Source of the DNA: Candidatus Eremiobacteraceae bacterium
Lineage (GTDB): Bacteria; Vulcanimicrobiota; Vulcanimicrobiia; Eremiobacterales; Eremiobacteraceae
DNA: 64,000 nt
Reading direction: 5' to 3'
NCBI GenBank assembly: GCA_035710745.1
Contig: DASTCX010000018.1
Span: 134,001-198,000, forward strand
Positions 55,325 to 61,929 of this stretch are shown piece by piece. The notes beneath the pieces are model-generated. The model worked only from the letters and a program-made list of their open reading frames with translations. It did no database searches and was not told where the DNA came from. The first letter of the stretch is position 1. Each line of letters starts with the position of its first letter. The translations under genes were made by a program, and so were the position numbers.

Positions 55325-55933
55325 ATGGATCCGGCAGCGCTATCGGCGCACGAGCGTCACCCGGTCGTCTTCGGCGTATACCGCGACGGCGACAACAACC
55401 TCGACCAGGCGCAAGAGCGAAATGTCACCGACTTCGTTTCGGCGACCGCGCGCGATCGCGCGCTGAAGGTCGTCGCCGAAGATACGACCTCGCTGCCGCG
55501 ATCGTCGTTCGGGATCGGCGAGCTGCGGACCGAGTCGTCCATCATCGAGGGCGGCGACCAGCGCGTCGTGCGCGTCACGTCGCCGGTCGACATGTCCGAT
55601 CGTTCGACGCTCGCGGCCTTCGTCGAGCGCACGCTCGATGCGCGAACGTCCGACCCGAAGTTCGCACGCGCCGACGTGTGGCTCGACCTCGTCGATCACG
55701 GCGGCGGCGACGGCGGGGGCCTTGAAGCCGATTCGAGCGGCGGCTTCATGTCGATCGGCGACATCGCGGGCGCGATCGCGGACGGACGCGCTCGCTTTCG
55801 AGCGGAGCATCCCGGCGCGGATGACCGCGTCACGGGCGTGGTCGCGAATCAATGCTTGATGAGTTCTTTGGGCTTCGCAGACTCGCTCTCACGCGCCGGT
55901 GTCCGTTATCTGTGCGCCTCGCCGGAAACATGA
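55325..55933 (+). pseudogene. C11 (clostripain-family) peptidase, truncated at the island edge
   Basis: 202 aa. The first two-thirds are like a clostripain-family cysteine peptidase: GVYRDGDNNLDQAQERNVTDFV, ...VWLDLVDHGGGDGGG (His of the dyad), then NQCLMSSLGFADSLSRAGVRYLCASPET, where the family has (D/N)xCLMxxxEVAYELxxxAxYxVxSxE, and it stops right there. Clostripain-like proteins normally continue for at least another 100-200 residues. The catalytic Cys may still be present, but the missing C-terminal part suggests truncation. Sequence beyond 55933 has a different base composition and shows no remainder. Confidence 0.65.
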
Positions 55934-56243
55934 GGTCGCATGCGCCCAGGAGTTAGTGGGCTCATTCCGTCGCGAGGGTACTGATATACTTGGCTCAAAT
56001 CCGGTCTGTCCCGTATACGGTCGTATGAGCTACCCCTGGATTGGTGGCGGATGGGTCTCAATTCGTGACTCTATAATGGTAGCACGAGTTACCGTGCCGG
56101 GGTCACGTTGCGGAACGGAAACTAAACCGATCTTGCGAACGTACCGACGTAGGGGATGTGGTTCTCAGAGGGGTAACACAAACCCAGGCGCACAGGCTTA
56201 AAGCCACGATGCGCTATGTGCCGTCGCCTCAAAGGGGCAATTT
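55934..56243 (+). other. Gene-free stretch at start of AT-richer island
   Basis: 310 bases without a credible gene. A TATAAT hexamer occurs at 56073 without a good -35, and a hairpin (GCGCA/TGCGC enclosing GGCT/AGCC, 56188-56214) lies 30 bases before the HicB-like gene. Base composition falls well below the window average here. Confidence 0.5.
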
Positions 56244-56687
56244 GTGGTGGACACTGTGACCGAATCCGTAGCGGCCACTGAGTCAGTCGAAGAGTCAGTA
56301 GAAAAAATCGATCTAACCGTTTTCGTCCGTCCGTCTTACGTTGACGACGGCTTCTTAGCCATTTGCTATCAGTGGAATCTCGCAGCAAGCGGTAAAACTC
56401 CCTACGAAGCGTTTGAGAATCTTCGCGATGTTGTCATGACCGCCGCTGAGATAGCCGAAGAGGGTGGCGAAGAGTCATTTGACGCCTTCGTTAATCAGAA
56501 ACCAAACGCCGCCACGATTAGAGAGTTTACAACGTTCAAAATCGTTTGGGCGATAACACTCGTCTTCGCGGTTATTCTCATGCCCGCCGCTCTAGTATTT
56601 ATGGGAGTGAAGCTCTTACAGGAGAGTTTGCAGAGCCGCTTCAGGAAGTATAGCGTTCCTGCGAACATGATGCTTTGCCACTCTTAG
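56244..56687 (+). CDS. HicB-like protein with C-terminal membrane helix
   Basis: 147 aa. Residues 22-75 follow the HicB partial RNase-H fold pattern (LTVFVRPSYVDDGFLAICYQWNLAASGKTPYEAFENLRDVVMTAAEI). Instead of the usual C-terminal DNA-binding helix-turn-helix or ribbon-helix-helix, residues 98-121 (FKIVWAITLVFAVILMPAALVFMG) form a clear membrane segment with a short charged tail. A HicA-like gene follows seven bases later. HicB usually neutralises HicA; a membrane-tethered form would be unusual. Codon use and composition differ from the core genes. Confidence 0.6.
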   Translation: MVDTVTESVAATESVEESVEKIDLTVFVRPSYVDDGFLAICYQWNLAASGKTPYEAFENLRDVVMTAAEIAEEGGEESFDAFVNQKPNAATIREFTTFKIVWAITLVFAVILMPAALVFMGVKLLQESLQSRFRKYSVPANMMLCHS

Positions 56688-56694
56688 GATATGG

Positions 56695-57006
56695 ATGGGC
56701 AAACGTTGGCCGCCGATCAAGAGGCGAGACTGGGTTGAAATCCTAGAGAACCTAGGACTCATGCCCCGTGCGGCGAGGAAGTCCGGCCGGGGCGATCACC
56801 GGGTCTATCACGGTCAAATCAACGGGCGTTCGGTTATGATACCCGTGGATTGGAACGTGGAAGAAGTCGACTACTACTACGTCGGCCAGCTGGAAGATCA
56901 GTCGGGCCTGACCAAGGCGGAAATCTACGGTCGGTGCAAGCGGACGGCCCGGTCCGCGTCGGTACCATGTCTGCTCAAGGCTGAGCCGGAACCTACTGAC
57001 GGGTAA
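56695..57006 (+). CDS. HicA-like mRNA interferase toxin
   Basis: 103 aa. GKRWPPIKRRDWVEILENLGLM followed by the HicA signature GRGDHRVYHGQINGRSVMIPVDW (His35 in the place of the catalytic His), then VGQLEDQSGLTKAEIY. About 30 extra C-terminal residues follow the HicA core. HicA toxins cleave mRNA. Usual order is hicA-hicB; here the HicB-like gene is first. Ribosome-binding bases AGGA overlap the stop of the upstream gene, so the two are coupled. Confidence 0.72.
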   Translation: MGKRWPPIKRRDWVEILENLGLMPRAARKSGRGDHRVYHGQINGRSVMIPVDWNVEEVDYYYVGQLEDQSGLTKAEIYGRCKRTARSASVPCLLKAEPEPTDG

Positions 57007-57075: not shown

Positions 57076-57321
57076 ATGGCGCGGTCGGCACCATATCTTA
57101 CCCCTCACTCGGCTGTTCCGGAACGCTCGCGATCCTCCGTGCCCGACGGCGGGACCTATTGGTATCGCGAGTCCATAACCCAAGGCACCGACAAATGCAT
57201 CGATGGGGGCACGATTCAAATGCATGTCCTTCCATTGGGTGACGGCACATCTTGGGACTGGAAATGGGATGGATCGGACATTTCCGTAAGAGGCGTCAGC
57301 GGTACGCCGAACAATCAATAG
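57076..57321 (+). CDS. Small hypothetical protein or gene fragment
   Basis: 81 aa, ATG start. Residues 22-75 (VPDGGTYWYRESITQGTDKCIDGGTIQMHVLPLGDGTSWDWKWDGSDISVRGVSG) look like beta-strand sequence. No family recognised. It lies at the edge between the AT-richer part and the GC-rich recombinase block and could be the remains of a longer gene. Confidence 0.4.
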   Translation: MARSAPYLTPHSAVPERSRSSVPDGGTYWYRESITQGTDKCIDGGTIQMHVLPLGDGTSWDWKWDGSDISVRGVSGTPNNQ

Positions 57322-57595
57322 CGATTAGACGTGGGGTGGGTCGAGGATCGCCGACATGAACCGATGCGGGCGACGCGGCATGCGGCCTCGTGTCAGCCGC
57401 CGGCGACGAAGGCGCGCACGACTCCTTGCCGTCAATCCACGCCTGGACCCGGTCGGTCTGCCGCCGGCGCGCGATGTACGCCGTCAACTTGAAGCCGATA
57501 GTATCGGCGAGATAGCGCACAATTGCGGAGAAATCGCGGCCGAGCGATTCGCGATACGACTCACGGAGCAGATCGTCGATAGCTGTACGGCTCAC
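57296..57595 (-). pseudogene. Remnant of an Xre/MbcA/ParS-type antitoxin (DUF2384 family)
   Basis: 99 aa from GTG. Residues 23-59 (FSAIVRYLADTIGFKLTAYIARRRQTDRVQAWIDGKE) resemble the N-terminal Xre-like helix-turn-helix of MbcA/ParS antitoxins (LGxKLTAYIAGVxxxxxVxxWxxG). The conserved C-terminal half that binds the RES toxin is absent; the last 40 residues are low-complexity and run into the composition boundary at about 57.3 kb. It overlaps the end of the gene at 57561. No RES toxin gene is seen. Confidence 0.4.
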
Positions 57596-58190
57596 CGATT
57601 ATCGGCGGCCTTAGCCACTCCGGGGCGGATGGCCAGAGCGCGACGTCGTGGCGCTCGAAGAGGTCGCGCAGGAACGCGCGGGCGGCGTAGACGTCGCGCG
57701 GCGACGGAAGTCGTTCGGTCGTGCGACTCAGTATCTGCACTAGCACGATGTCGGGCCGTCGAAAGCCCGGATACGCGCCGGTGAACCTCGGGCCGTATAC
57801 GCGCATGATGCGGCGCAGAATCGCACGCGCGGAGATCCGGACCGGGAGCGGAGCGGCGAGCCCGAGGGGAGGCAACGTCGCGCGCGCTTGCGACGGCGCG
57901 CGCAGCGGCAGCACGACGACGAGGCCGATCGGACCTCCGTGCCGCAGCGCGACGTACGCCGCGCATACGGCGTCGAAGAACTCCAAGCGGGATGCGCGCT
58001 CGACCCTGACTGGCAACGTGCCGAGCAGATCGGTTTCAATCGAGACAACCTCCAGATTTGGATGCGAGGGCGCCTCGAAACGCTCGAGCCAGCGCAGCCA
58101 CGTGCCGAGCGAGCCGACGAGGCGAAGAAAGCGCCCGTCCGTCGGCGCCACCCTTGCGCGCGACAGTCGACCCGTCGGATCGTTTTTCAC
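57561..58190 (-). CDS. Hypothetical protein, 209 aa
   Basis: GTG start overlapping the stop of the gene upstream (GTGA). Two alpha/beta regions (VVSIETDLLGTLPVRVERASRLEFFDAVCAAYVALRHGGPIGLVVVLPLR and RFTGAYPGFRRPDIVLVQILSR...VYAARAFLRDLFERHDVALWP). No family recognised. It is on the strand of the recombinase genes, which supports its being cargo of the same unit. Confidence 0.55.
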   Translation of the reverse strand: MKNDPTGRLSRARVAPTDGRFLRLVGSLGTWLRWLERFEAPSHPNLEVVSIETDLLGTLPVRVERASRLEFFDAVCAAYVALRHGGPIGLVVVLPLRAPSQARATLPPLGLAAPLPVRISARAILRRIMRVYGPRFTGAYPGFRRPDIVLVQILSRTTERLPSPRDVYAARAFLRDLFERHDVALWPSAPEWLRPPIIGEPYSYRRSAP

Positions 58191-58444
58191 TTGGTCCTTT
58201 CCAAAAAGCGACGCGCTTCATGGCGCGCGCGCTCGACGATCGCGTCGCGAAGGCGCGCCGACAACAGGCTCAGCCTAAAGGCCCAGTCGGCCGCAAGTTG
58301 CGCGGCGCCCGTCGCATCGCGATAATCTTCTGACGCGAGGAGCGCCTCGACCACGCGCGCGGCGGCGACGAAGTCGGAACCGACCGCACCGAGCCGGTGC
58401 GCCCATTCGAGCATCTTCGGGCCGGAAGGCCCGTCGTCAGGCAT
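58187..58444 (-). CDS. Hypothetical small helical protein, 85 aa
   Basis: ATG start. Predicted all-helical (MLEWAHRLGAVGSDFVAAARVVEALLASEDYRDATGAAQLAADWAFRLSLLSARLRDAIVERARHEARRFLERTK). Overlaps the next gene by four bases. 134 bases downstream of the recombinase trio. No family recognised. Confidence 0.55.
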   Translation of the reverse strand: MPDDGPSGPKMLEWAHRLGAVGSDFVAAARVVEALLASEDYRDATGAAQLAADWAFRLSLLSARLRDAIVERARHEARRFLERTK

Positions 58445-58578
58445 CGCCAGCGCCTCGCAGCTCGGCGGATGGACTCGTCAACCTATCGTGACGCGCGACG
58501 GCACCGCCGAGGAGGTTGATAGCACGTTGGACCATCCGTGCCGCGCGCTTCGCACGCGCGACCGACCGCCTTTCATCA

Positions 58579-58938
58579 CTATGCATCTTCTTCGTCGTCC
58601 CCGCCGTTAGGCAGCTGGAAATTTCGAATCAGCTTCTTCTTCTTCGGTCGCATTGCGCCGTTGCGATCGAGCGCGCCGGACGTCGGATCCGCATGTCCAA
58701 CGATCAGGTGCGCGCGGCGTATGGCGCGGAGCAGCGGCCGAACGCCGTGCACGCCGAGGTACGGCAAGAATTCCTCGACAAGAAGCGCGACGGTCGACGG
58801 ATCCGCTGGCAGCGAACGAAGCCGTCGCAGGTCGCACCAGGCGCGAAATGCTTGGAAGCTGCCGATGCGGAAGGCGTTCTCGCGCGGGAGATGCGCGCGC
58901 CCGGCGACCGCAAGAGTTTCCGAACGATGCTCGTTCAC
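58579..58938 (-). CDS. Stand-alone tyrosine-recombinase core-binding domain protein (third of trio)
   Basis: 119 aa from a GTG that overlaps the stop of the second recombinase gene (GTGA). Residues 24-90 (FRIGSFQAFRAWCDLRRLRSLPADPSTVALLVEEFLPYLGVHGVRPLLRAIRRAHLIVGHADPTSG) are a SAM-like core-binding domain as in phage integrases (WC...LPA...V..YL...AI...H...G..DPT). It then ends in a basic/acidic tail (MRPKKKKLIRNF ... GGDDEEDA). No catalytic domain follows. It could be a DNA-binding accessory of the other two or a truncated third recombinase. Confidence 0.65.
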   Translation of the reverse strand: MNEHRSETLAVAGRAHLPRENAFRIGSFQAFRAWCDLRRLRSLPADPSTVALLVEEFLPYLGVHGVRPLLRAIRRAHLIVGHADPTSGALDRNGAMRPKKKKLIRNFQLPNGGDDEEDA

Positions 58939-60221
58939 GTGCGCGCTCCTCGGCCGGCCGGCGCCGAGCGACCTCGCTGTCGAAGATGACGCAAGCGCAA
59001 TTCTCGCGTCGATTGGAGCGCCCGGCCGTACCCGTCGATGATGCTTTGCGCGCCGGCATACCCCGCGGCAGCCGCCACGGCGACCGGCCCCAACTTTCGC
59101 GTCGCGTCGACGACGAATCCCTTGCGGATCGCGGCGACGCAGACGCCATGATGCGGAATCCCCGCGTTCTTCGCGAGCCGCCGAAGCGTCACGGCAATCG
59201 CGTGCGACGACATCGGCTGGTTCGCGAACCCCGACGGAGTGTGGCTCGGGAAGAGCGGGCCTGGTTCGACGCCGATGACCGCCGACCACCGCCTGAACCA
59301 CGTCTTGACGGACAAATCGGGATCGCCGCACTCCCATATCTTCACCTCGCGCATGTGACGCATGCCGATCGTGAAGACGATTCCGTCCTCTTCCGCGCGA
59401 CAGCGTGAGACGTCCATGGCCCGAACGTGGCGCAGCGCCAAGCCGCCGAGCGCGAGACAGACCAGCAACAGGCCGTTGCGCGCCCCGAACGCCGACCGTC
59501 GATTCATGCGCTCGAGCATCAGGCGGACGTCTTTGAGGCGGATAGACCGCATCTGCGCCCGCGGCCGCTCGCGACAGAGTCCATCGACAATCGCCTTCAC
59601 TTGCGGATGGACGGCGAGGTCGCACGCTCCGCCTTTGCGGAAGTAGTGCGACAGCCCATGGAGTCGGTTCGCCACGGTCTGGGCGGCCAAGCCAGAAGCC
59701 ACCACGTCGGCGACGTACCTCTTGAAATTCGGCAAACCCGGCTCGAGCGGATCGACGCCGCTCTTCTTCGCCCACTCCACCCAGAGTCTCGCCGCGAGCG
59801 TGTACCCCTTGCGGGTCGACGGGCTGTAGGCCGCCGACGCCATGCGCTTGGCCCGTCGTCGTCGAACCGACAATCCGGCAACCGGTCGGGCCAGCGGATC
59901 ATCTTGCGGCGCGATGTCGAGCAAGTCTATTGCCTCCGCGACCGCGGGATCGTCGACGAGCACGGGCACGCCCTCTTCGCGGAAATACCAAGCGATGGCG
60001 TGCGACGCCCGACGCGCGTCGTTCGGAATCGAAAAACGCCGAAGGTACGCGACGAGATAGTCGATCGGCGGACGGCGCGGATCGAGTCCGTCAGCGACGG
60101 CGGCTCGTTCCCAGGACTTCGCTCGCCAACGGTATGTCTTCACCGTGGCCGGCGTATAGCGTTCGACCGCCCCGTCGGGCGCTCGAGACAGCGACGCTTG
60201 ACGACCGCGGAAAGCTCTCAT
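58935..60221 (-). CDS. Degenerate tyrosine recombinase with two core-binding domains (second of trio)
   Basis: 428 aa; ATGA overlap with the first integrase gene. Two similar core-binding domains lie in tandem (about 20-100, starting YTPATVKTYRWRAKSWERAA, and 130-215, starting YSPSTRKGYTLAARLWVEWA). The catalytic domain keeps Arg264 (LALGGLALRHVRAMDV), Arg366 (AAIRKGF) and a Tyr398 in DGYGRA at the correct spacing (R to Y = 32, as in XerD), but the histidine three before Arg366 is Ala363 and the one at +23 is absent (GYAGA). It may be inactive or use another acid-base arrangement. Confidence 0.78.
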   Translation of the reverse strand: MRAFRGRQASLSRAPDGAVERYTPATVKTYRWRAKSWERAAVADGLDPRRPPIDYLVAYLRRFSIPNDARRASHAIAWYFREEGVPVLVDDPAVAEAIDLLDIAPQDDPLARPVAGLSVRRRRAKRMASAAYSPSTRKGYTLAARLWVEWAKKSGVDPLEPGLPNFKRYVADVVASGLAAQTVANRLHGLSHYFRKGGACDLAVHPQVKAIVDGLCRERPRAQMRSIRLKDVRLMLERMNRRSAFGARNGLLLVCLALGGLALRHVRAMDVSRCRAEEDGIVFTIGMRHMREVKIWECGDPDLSVKTWFRRWSAVIGVEPGPLFPSHTPSGFANQPMSSHAIAVTLRRLAKNAGIPHHGVCVAAIRKGFVVDATRKLGPVAVAAAAGYAGAQSIIDGYGRALQSTRELRLRHLRQRGRSAPAGRGART

Positions 60222-61390
60222 GAGAGAAGCGCCCGGGCGATGTTGACGCGACGCTGGCGCGGACGATAGTAGGCTTGCAGCGACTGCAAGCTCGCGTGAC
60301 GGACGTGCGCGGCGATGACGACGTCGTCGACGCCGCGTTCCTTCAATTCCGTCACGCAGCCGGCGCGCAGCGAGTGCGCGCCGACGTCGGCGGGAGAAAG
60401 ACCCACCGCCGGAGCGAACCGTTTGACGTACTCGGCGACGCTCCAGGCGCTCAGGCGGCCCTGCACCTGGTTGCCCGGGTAGATGCGTCGGAAGAGCGGA
60501 CCGCTGGTTTCGCCGAGGACCTCGAGCCAGGCCTCGACGGCGGCGACCGGGCAGAGCTGCGGATCGTCGGGCAGACGCTCGATCACGACCTCGGCGCCGC
60601 GCCCGTACTGATCCTTCTTGCTCTTGATGAGATGAATCGTCAGCCGGTCGGACGCGAACTCGAGATCCTCGACGTCGAGCGCGACCGTCTCCTCGCGCCG
60701 CAACCCGCAGAAGAACGTCAGCGCGATCACCGCCCATTCCTGGATGCCGTGCGGCCACGGCCGCTTGGCCGCGGCCGCCGCCATGCCGCGCAGCTCGTCG
60801 GCGGTGACCGCCAGCTTCTGCCGACTCGGCGAGCCGCCGTAGAGCCGAGAGATTCCCCGCATGACGTCGCGGACGAGAAGGACGTCCGTCGGACTGGGCA
60901 GACCGGCCAACCGATGCGCCTTGGCGATCACGCTCAACGTGGCGCGAATGGTCGAGGCCTCGTACCAGTCGTCGGCCATCCCCGCGATGAGATCCGCGGC
61001 GACCGTCGGCGCCATCGGCAACGGACACACGTTCCACCGCTCGCATCGCGCCACCACCTGACGCCATGCGCTGTTGTACGAGCGGATCGTGTTGCGCGCC
61101 AAGCTTTGACACGCGTAGAACGCGGCGCGAGAGACGGCGCCGTCAGCGTCGACGAGAGCGGGCAACCCGAACTCGACTTTCGCAGAAGCGGGGACCGGCA
61201 GCTTGGGGAGGCGCGGCTTCGCTTGTTTCATTCGTTGCGCGCCGTCATCGTTTGTGCCAAAGGATTGAGTCGATGCTCCATCTATTGGCATAGCACCTTC
61301 CGCCGCAGCGGCGGCCGCGAGAATCCATTCGGGGACGGCTGGCTCGCGACGACGTCGACGAACTTGTGGGTTTCGATCGGTCGGTTTCAA
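60218..61390 (-). CDS. Tyrosine recombinase/integrase (first of trio, complete active site)
   Basis: 390 aa from TTG with AAGGAG eight bases upstream. Core-binding domain about 90-185 (SLARNTIRSYNSAWRQVVARCERWNVCPLPM...MRGISRLYGGSPSR). Catalytic residues: Arg231 (FFCGLRREE), Lys near 257, His339 and Arg342 (HSLRAG), His365 (HVRHAS), Tyr374 (AYYRP). Spacing between Arg342, His365 and Tyr374 (23 and 9) equals XerD. Expected to cut and rejoin DNA at an attachment site. Divergent from the excisionase-like gene; an inverted repeat lies upstream. Confidence 0.9.
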   Translation of the reverse strand: MKPTDRNPQVRRRRREPAVPEWILAAAAAAEGAMPIDGASTQSFGTNDDGAQRMKQAKPRLPKLPVPASAKVEFGLPALVDADGAVSRAAFYACQSLARNTIRSYNSAWRQVVARCERWNVCPLPMAPTVAADLIAGMADDWYEASTIRATLSVIAKAHRLAGLPSPTDVLLVRDVMRGISRLYGGSPSRQKLAVTADELRGMAAAAAKRPWPHGIQEWAVIALTFFCGLRREETVALDVEDLEFASDRLTIHLIKSKKDQYGRGAEVVIERLPDDPQLCPVAAVEAWLEVLGETSGPLFRRIYPGNQVQGRLSAWSVAEYVKRFAPAVGLSPADVGAHSLRAGCVTELKERGVDDVVIAAHVRHASLQSLQAYYRPRQRRVNIARALLS

Positions 61391-61441
61391 GACGATGCTC
61401 CTTCGTGCTATGCGTTGGTGCTCGGTGAGTCTTGATGAGCG

Positions 61442-61459
61442 ACGTGATGCGCGTCACGT
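61442..61459. promoter_or_regulatory. Inverted repeat ACGTGA-N6-TCACGT upstream of integrase
   Basis: Perfect six-base arms around TGCGCG, 51 bases upstream of the integrase start codon in the divergent region with the excisionase-like gene. Candidate regulator or excisionase/recombinase binding site. Confidence 0.4.
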
Positions 61460-61656
61460 TTCGGTTTGGATGTTTATCGGTGGATGCCGTATGTCGCCAC
61501 TCTAGGTGCCACTCTTTGCCGCGCCCTTGCCGCCCGCGAAGACGCGGGTACCAGAAGTGACGGAGCCCGGACGACGACGACGCTCAATGTAACTTGGAAC
61601 ACGCAAACGACCTTACGCGCCAGTGCTTGACGAGGGAGAAGTCCGACGTGGGAGCC

Positions 61657-61929
61657 ATGAAGATCAACCGCCGGCCTGTGGCCAAGAGCGGAGTCAAACC
61701 GCCGAACAGACGGCCTTACGAGTCGGCCGAACCCGCGGTCCTCACCGTCGAAGAGACGGCCGCGTACCTTCGGATCTCGCCCCACTCGGCCTACATCATG
61801 AGCCGGAACGGGCTGCTGCCGATCGTCCGTCCGCTCAAGCGACGGACGCTCGTCATCAAGAAGCTGCTCGACGAGGCTATCGTGGACCGCACGCTCGGCA
61901 CGAGGATCTTCGAGCCGGCCGCATCGTGA
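61657..61929 (+). CDS. Excisionase-like helix-turn-helix protein
   Basis: 90 aa. Residues 28-75, VLTVEETAAYLRISPHSAYIMSRNGLLPIVRPLKRRTLVIKKLLDEAI, match the HTH_17/excisionase (MerR-like winged helix) fold. GGGAG precedes the ATG by four bases; the frame is open to 61594 without conserved sequence. Probably a recombination directionality factor or repressor for the divergent integrase trio. Confidence 0.78.
   Translation: MKINRRPVAKSGVKPPNRRPYESAEPAVLTVEETAAYLRISPHSAYIMSRNGLLPIVRPLKRRTLVIKKLLDEAIVDRTLGTRIFEPAAS

Follow-up and report, generated by a model that had tools for sequence, protein, structure and literature searches.

Organization of the recombinase operon

The sequence analyzed in this study (the window) is a stretch of 64,000 nucleotides from Candidatus Eremiobacteraceae bacterium (assembly GCA_035710745.1, contig DASTCX010000018.1, positions 134,001 to 198,000), and the subject of the analysis is an operon of tyrosine recombinase-class genes within it, together with a divergent helix-turn-helix (HTH) gene. 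The source genome, a metagenome-assembled genome (MAG) of 2.97 Mb, is designated G000, and the window is part of its 292,753-bp contig C18, positions on which are given as C18:n. Other G-numbers denote relatives, which are MAGs of Candidatus Eremiobacterota, and L-numbers (L058, L090-L092, L121, L164, L179) denote loci extracted from them. A total of 149 genomes of the phylum were searched.

Three consecutive genes on the minus strand belong to the tyrosine recombinase class. Gene A (60218..61390) encodes a tyrosine recombinase matching PF00589 Phage_integrase with an E value of 6e-14, gene B (58935..60221) a catalytically dead protein of recombinase fold, and gene C (58579..58938) a stand-alone core-binding domain. 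A and B overlap by 4 bp (ATGA) and B and C by 4 bp (GTGA). Re-reading of the sequence confirmed the coordinates of these genes and the four-base overlaps that a first-pass annotation of the same DNA had given, and the complete enzyme that it had seen in A was found to be complete: in addition to the Phage_integrase match, all catalytic residues are present (R231, K258, H339, R342, H362 and Y374, in the order R-K-H-R-H-Y) and align across four homologues. Gene A starts at a TTG codon with AAGGAG upstream, and its product carries an N-terminal extension of about 85 residues ahead of the core-binding domain. It is the only active tyrosine recombinase in the island described below and one of three in the whole genome.

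The gene divergent from A (61594..61929, plus strand), previously described as an HTH gene of excisionase-like type, matches PF12728 HTH_17 above the cut-off (E 7e-8), so that its description as an HTH gene holds. An internal ATG at 61657 is a possible true start. The protein also matches the PHROG family 'excisionase and transcriptional regulator' (E 3e-4) and scores below the cut-off of the TIGR01764 excisionase model. This HTH_17 protein is likely a directionality factor and/or a repressor.

Loss of catalytic residues and duplication of the core-binding domain in gene B

Pfam matches of B were limited to SAM-like core-binding models below cut-off. The AlphaFold2 (AF2) model of B, of moderate confidence (mean predicted local distance difference test score, pLDDT, 69.5), revealed two four-helix bundles (residues 24-103 and 134-218, in core-binding domains that span about residues 20-105 and 128-216) followed by a degenerate catalytic-type domain, and in the Protein Data Bank (PDB) this model matches Cre complexes best (E 1e-8). 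A profile of the second core-binding domain of B combined with the domains of A finds the first domain of B, with an E value of ~1e-11 in two of the four B proteins compared and weaker values in the rest. Recognition of the first domain by this profile indicates that B carries a duplicated core-binding domain, in agreement with the AF2 model and with the two core-binding domains proposed earlier.

The absence of both catalytic histidines had also been reported for B beforehand; the present analysis confirms it and extends the loss to Arg I, Lys and the aligned Tyr. The window protein has none of Arg I, Lys, His II and His III, and the residue aligned to the nucleophile is not a Tyr. In a joint alignment of the A and B proteins of four genomes, the B proteins have A, K, N and H in place of Arg I, A, G, W and P in place of His II, and G, H, H and H in place of Tyr. 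Lys is gone from all four proteins, and Arg II is retained in three.

Database comparison found no PHROG match for B, and in NCBIfam only a weak generic similarity to Xer. No full-length homologue of B was present in 72,556 plasmids; with three B proteins as queries, all plasmid matches were partial and covered the core-binding and catalytic part of ordinary integrases. The surroundings of eight relatives of A or B on plasmids were also inspected, and none contained an A-B pair. Viral contigs searched with B (three profiles) and C yielded no relatives. When GTDB was scanned with the B profile, the only loci recovered were two from Eremiobacterota that were known already, this being a short-pattern scan that divergent B proteins in other phyla could escape.

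Conservation of the HTH-A-B arrangement in the phylum

Full-length relatives of B were identified in three other genomes (G047, G114 and G115). In all three an A-type gene lies directly upstream of B and overlaps it, and an HTH_17-type gene is divergent. Identity to the window proteins in four-row alignments is 33-37% for A and 21-27% for B, and these low values indicate that the HTH-A-B arrangement is old. The A proteins of the four genomes keep Arg I, Lys, His II, Arg II and Tyr, the sole exception being Gln at His II in G115. Phylogenetic analysis of 32 recombinases placed the four A proteins in a single clade (support 100/98) and the four B proteins in another (100/99), with the 24 other enzymes, two of them on very long branches, falling outside both.

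An apparent solo recombinase in G019 (L164:188-3041, G019:C1) proved to be a distant version of the same arrangement. It consists of an active recombinase and an overlapping 289-residue partner that has one core-binding domain and lacks Arg I, Lys, His II and Tyr; the divergent HTH_17-like gene is recognized weakly, below cut-off. G116 (L179:6495-9571, G116:C2) contains a pair as in G019, with a dead partner 56% identical and a divergent HTH_17 gene. Solo recombinase loci of the phylum, about 25 in number, have no B-like neighbour and no such HTH gene within about 1.5 kb. The order HTH, active enzyme, dead partner is thus common to six loci (G000, G047, G114 and G115, and in the distant version G019 and G116), which argues that the arrangement is not due to chance, and since an active enzyme with a dead partner recurs in five other genomes, the partner is evidently kept for a purpose. 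The first-pass annotation had suggested looking for its gene order in other genomes; the HTH-A-B part of that order is conserved at these six loci, and the trio A-B-C occurs in G000 alone.

Two tandem islands are present at a tRNA-Glu gene in G115 (G115:C6:149713-174161, L090-L092), with 28-bp and 37-bp copies of the tRNA 3' end at their boundaries. In the first island the A-B module is accompanied by a classical integrase, a HipBA-like pair and a methylase-like gene. Island edges were also sought at G047 and G114, where none could be fixed.

Gene C as a lone core-binding domain

Gene C has its own GAGGAG site, and its product ends in a basic/acidic C-terminal tail. No Pfam match was obtained for C, and comparison with the phylum revealed matches to the core-binding domains of full integrases, the lowest E values being about 1e-8 to 1e-11. 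All of the top PDB matches to the C model are Cre chains, in the core-binding region, and are weak (E 0.06 and up); the mean pLDDT of this AF2 model is 66.5, higher in the helices, and integrase sequences formed its input alignment, which may favour that fold. The integrase matches and the lack of a catalytic domain agree with the earlier view of C as a core-binding domain only. The possibility raised with that view, that C is the front half of a split or frameshifted integrase, is ruled out because no catalytic remnant is present downstream or elsewhere in the island. Found in G000 alone among the 149 genomes searched, C is a local addition outside the conserved core.

A C-like match in G007 (L121:6555-6884, G007:C95) was rejected, as it represents a decayed solo integrase reduced to the core-binding domain. 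It illustrates a possible origin of a C-like gene.

Decay as an explanation for both genes, B and C being leftovers of once-normal integrases, appears very improbable. The loss of catalytic residues would fit such a history, as would the lack of a catalytic domain in C and its restriction to G000. Against this, the reading frames of B are open in four genomes, where their products share one architecture at 21-29% identity and form one clade, the genes are linked by 4-bp overlaps and preceded by Shine-Dalgarno motifs, and C is followed by no catalytic remnant. Decay is hence disfavoured for B; C alone may have arisen in this way.

The 100-kb island and its ends

Analysis of the sequence to the left of the operon identified the 5' part of an interrupted host gene (55325..55929, plus strand). 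The same gene is intact, encoding 423 residues, in the same-genus genome G001 (L058:6872-8143), and its 3' part was located in the source genome at G000:C18:290008-291579, on the same strand as the 5' part and 100 kb away. The insert measures 100,089 bp with the repeats included, and the island spans G000:C18:189930-290000 (window position 55930 onward). The edges of the element had been expected at about 57.3 and 61.9 kb; they are not there, the left edge being at 55.93 kb and the right edge about 100 kb away, outside the window. The accompanying proposal was to look for repeats and for an empty site in a related genome; G001 has the intact gene, and imperfect direct and inverted repeats lie at the true junctions.

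The left copy of the direct repeat (attL) is the imperfect 11-bp sequence TCGCCGGAAAC at 55919..55929, and the right copy, TCCCCAGAGAC, lies at C18 ~290.0 kb, outside the window. The three differences between the copies are all at third codon positions of one Ser-Pro-Glu-Thr stretch, a pattern suggesting that the element brought one copy along from the version of this gene in another host. The left terminal inverted repeat, GAAACATGAGGTCGCATGCGCC (55925..55946), matches the right end at 16 of 22 positions; outside the host repeat the match is 12 of 17 (p ~3e-4 in a fixed register, 0.6% when shifts of +-10 are allowed). The right junction (G000:C18:289993-290012) forms a near-perfect palindrome, GTCTCTGGG-TC-CCCAGAGAC, made up of the island end and host sequence. 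With a split attB, direct repeats, an integrase near one end and an HTH gene for a candidate directionality factor, the locus has the features of a tyrosine recombinase genomic island (integrase plus Xis). The 3' end of the operon is 1.4 kb inside the left junction (55.93 kb), and the operon reads towards this border. No close copy of the end sequences was found in the contigs of G047, G114 and G115.

The defence cargo of the island comprises KwaA/KwaB (Kiwa), a bSEFIR-type TIR protein, a type IV restriction enzyme, and ThiF/E1, QueC and QatA/PifA-like proteins. An insertion-sequence transposase and a large serine recombinase are also present.

Overall, our analysis favours, as somewhat more probable than the other readings together, an operon that serves as the integration/excision module of the 100-kb island, in which A cuts and B is a non-cutting partner on the attachment sites; we infer that this operon moved the island. 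Several observations weigh against this. The large serine recombinase at C18:229343, 39 kb inside the island and with an XRE-like gene beside it, leaves room for a composite island or for a different mover. The module of G115 lies inside a 21-kb tRNA-Glu island that has 28-bp repeats and a classical integrase of its own, so that the A-B module need not be the mover there. The two copies of the direct repeat differ at 3 of 11 positions, and the terminal inverted repeats are imperfect and known from one island. The topologies of the A and B clades are not fully congruent, although the branches of B are long, and C, seen in G000 only, is not conserved.

Some of these observations fit an alternative in which the operon is a passenger, or else a small element in its own right, the island resulted from several events or was moved by another enzyme, and the A-B pair acts on another site. 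The serine recombinase with its XRE-like neighbour, the insertion sequences and varied cargo, and the situation in G115 are in its favour, and the island, known from a metagenome assembly, may be composite. We nevertheless consider this alternative rather unlikely, as the operon contains the recombinase nearest to an end (1.4 kb), with the serine recombinase 39 kb from the end, and a search of the island at up to 5 mismatches found no second copy of the end sequences except one weak palindrome-like match, and hence no sign of a smaller unit.

Comparison with known systems

Comparison with recombinase-in-trio (RIT) elements revealed a shared organization of three adjacent tyrosine recombinase-class genes with short overlaps, and RitA of RIT likewise has two core-binding domains (PMC8138268). 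RIT elements, however, are about 3.5 kb in size and all three of their proteins show a possible catalytic motif (PMC3414803), whereas here two of the three proteins, B and C, are non-catalytic and the element is an island. The locus is therefore not a RIT, and the division of parts is unlike that of RIT, as the first-pass annotation had supposed.

In GInt elements all four genes (ginABCD) are needed for excision and integration, including the degenerate GinC, which lacks at least the first arginine (PMC5385486). GInt resembles the present locus in having an operon near the island end, cargo to at least 70 kb and a degenerate recombinase-like subunit (PMC5385486), and its imperfect direct repeats of 10-11 nt are comparable to TCGCCGGAAAC / TCCCCAGAGAC. 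It differs in having two catalytic enzymes, GinA and GinB, whereas here A is the only one and no second active tyrosine recombinase occurs island-wide. GInt also has a fourth small protein, GinD; the small proteins here, C to F, match no family above cut-off. The double-core-binding dead subunit, the lone core-binding domain and the divergent HTH_17 gene further distinguish the present locus, and the GInt operon stands at the 5' end and reads into the cargo, in contrast to the border-directed operon found here.

Strand-biased circularizing elements (SEs), with the gene order intA-tfp-intB-srap, are reported only in Gammaproteobacteria, and their Tfp lacks the RHRY motif (PMC10214605). SEs and the present locus both have an operon that includes a non-catalytic protein of recombinase fold, and both have imperfect terminal inverted repeats. 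SEs have two active RHRY recombinases and Srap, and no divergent HTH_17 gene is described for them, whereas here one recombinase is active. The joint of the SE circle consists of imperfect inverted repeats with a 6-bp spacer (PMC10214605), compared with imperfect repeats from one island here.

With one active enzyme instead of two and an outward-pointing operon, the locus is not a GInt or SE on the features tested. Assignment to a known RIT, GInt or SE element is the least credible of all explanations. Overlapping recombinase genes, position at an island end and imperfect repeats speak for it; against it stand the need of RIT for three catalytic recombinases, and of GInt and SE for two active ones plus GinD or Srap, compared with one active enzyme here, as well as the database results for B (no PHROG match, weak generic Xer similarity in NCBIfam and no full-length homologue in the plasmids). 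Both a two-core-binding recombinase (RitA, PMC8138268) and a dead recombinase-fold subunit (GinC, PMC5385486; Tfp, PMC10214605) are precedented. By analogy with GinC and Tfp, the best reading is that the present module would work like GInt and SE with a single active recombinase, being set apart from them by gene content as given in their descriptions.

The Tn554 family (TnpA, TnpB, TnpC) is similar in combining an active recombinase, a partner of the same class and a small third protein. TnpC is not known as a core-binding domain. TnpB differs from B in being catalytic and much longer (general knowledge and PMC10214605).

MrpR of phage SPbeta, a repressor of recombinase fold that has lost its active site, with most catalytic residues gone (PMC10516654), raises the question of whether B (and C) are DNA-binding regulators that repress the operon or the island. 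Such a role would be consistent with the retained fold of B. MrpR, however, is a stand-alone repressor uncoupled from any active paralogue (PMC10516654), whereas at each of the six loci the gene for B overlaps that of an active paralogue or lies next to it. Furthermore, a candidate regulator is already available in the divergent HTH_17 gene, and in similar operons GinC and Tfp act, or are suspected to act, in recombination. A purely regulatory role thus appears improbable.

Proposed working of the module

We infer a joint action of A, B and C at the ends of the island, with the following roles. Since A has the only working active site of the three, all strand cleavage by this operon would come from A, which would do all cutting and rejoining. 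Translation of B would be coupled to that of A, and B most likely joins A at the attachment sites, where it may fix site recognition, geometry or the order of strand exchange. B has retained the fold and gained an extra site-binding domain, and its gene overlaps that of A; together these features suggest that A and B occupy the DNA in a fixed ratio. The simplest role for B would be that of a non-cutting subunit that reads the site or has an architectural function, and the best reading is that the dead paralogue B is an obligate architectural partner of A. C may modulate site binding as an optional component, by competing for it or extending it, and the HTH_17 protein would set the direction or repress.

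A wider proposal, made tentatively, is that the locus could represent a new class of Eremiobacterota site-specific recombination machine, in which a catalytic recombinase is obligately paired with a dead double-core-binding paralogue (here with a free core-binding domain in addition) and cutting and site reading are placed in separate genes. RIT, GInt, SE and Tn554 share the puzzle of why several recombinase-like proteins are present, some of them without an active site. The two-gene pair of active and dead protein is simpler than these systems, and the role of a dead subunit would become testable with one enzyme and one partner. The locus also provides a concrete candidate mobilization module, with an empty site in G001, for defence-gene islands in an uncultured phylum.

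Other genes and features of the window

The three small genes that had been noted on the recombinase strand were all found. Gene D (58187..58444, minus strand) encodes an 85-residue orphan helical protein, gene E (57561..58190, minus strand) a 209-residue orphan that among the genomes searched occurs only in G000, and gene F (57296..57595, minus strand) a 99-residue orphan. D and E overlap by 4 bp and E and F by 35 bp. The pattern of G+C at codon positions typical of real genes is strong in A, B, D and E and weaker in C and F. Genes C to F have no family match above cut-off in Pfam, NCBIfam-type and PHROG scans. The operon had also been described as a GC-rich block within AT-richer flanks; this is correct locally, whereas the flanks (50-60% GC) are themselves island DNA, compared with ~60-67% GC in the chromosome left of 55.9 kb. 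The plus strand carries a two-gene cassette (56244-57006; 147 and 103 residues) between the island edge and the operon; by eye it resembles a HicB/HicA-type pair, but neither protein has a Pfam match.

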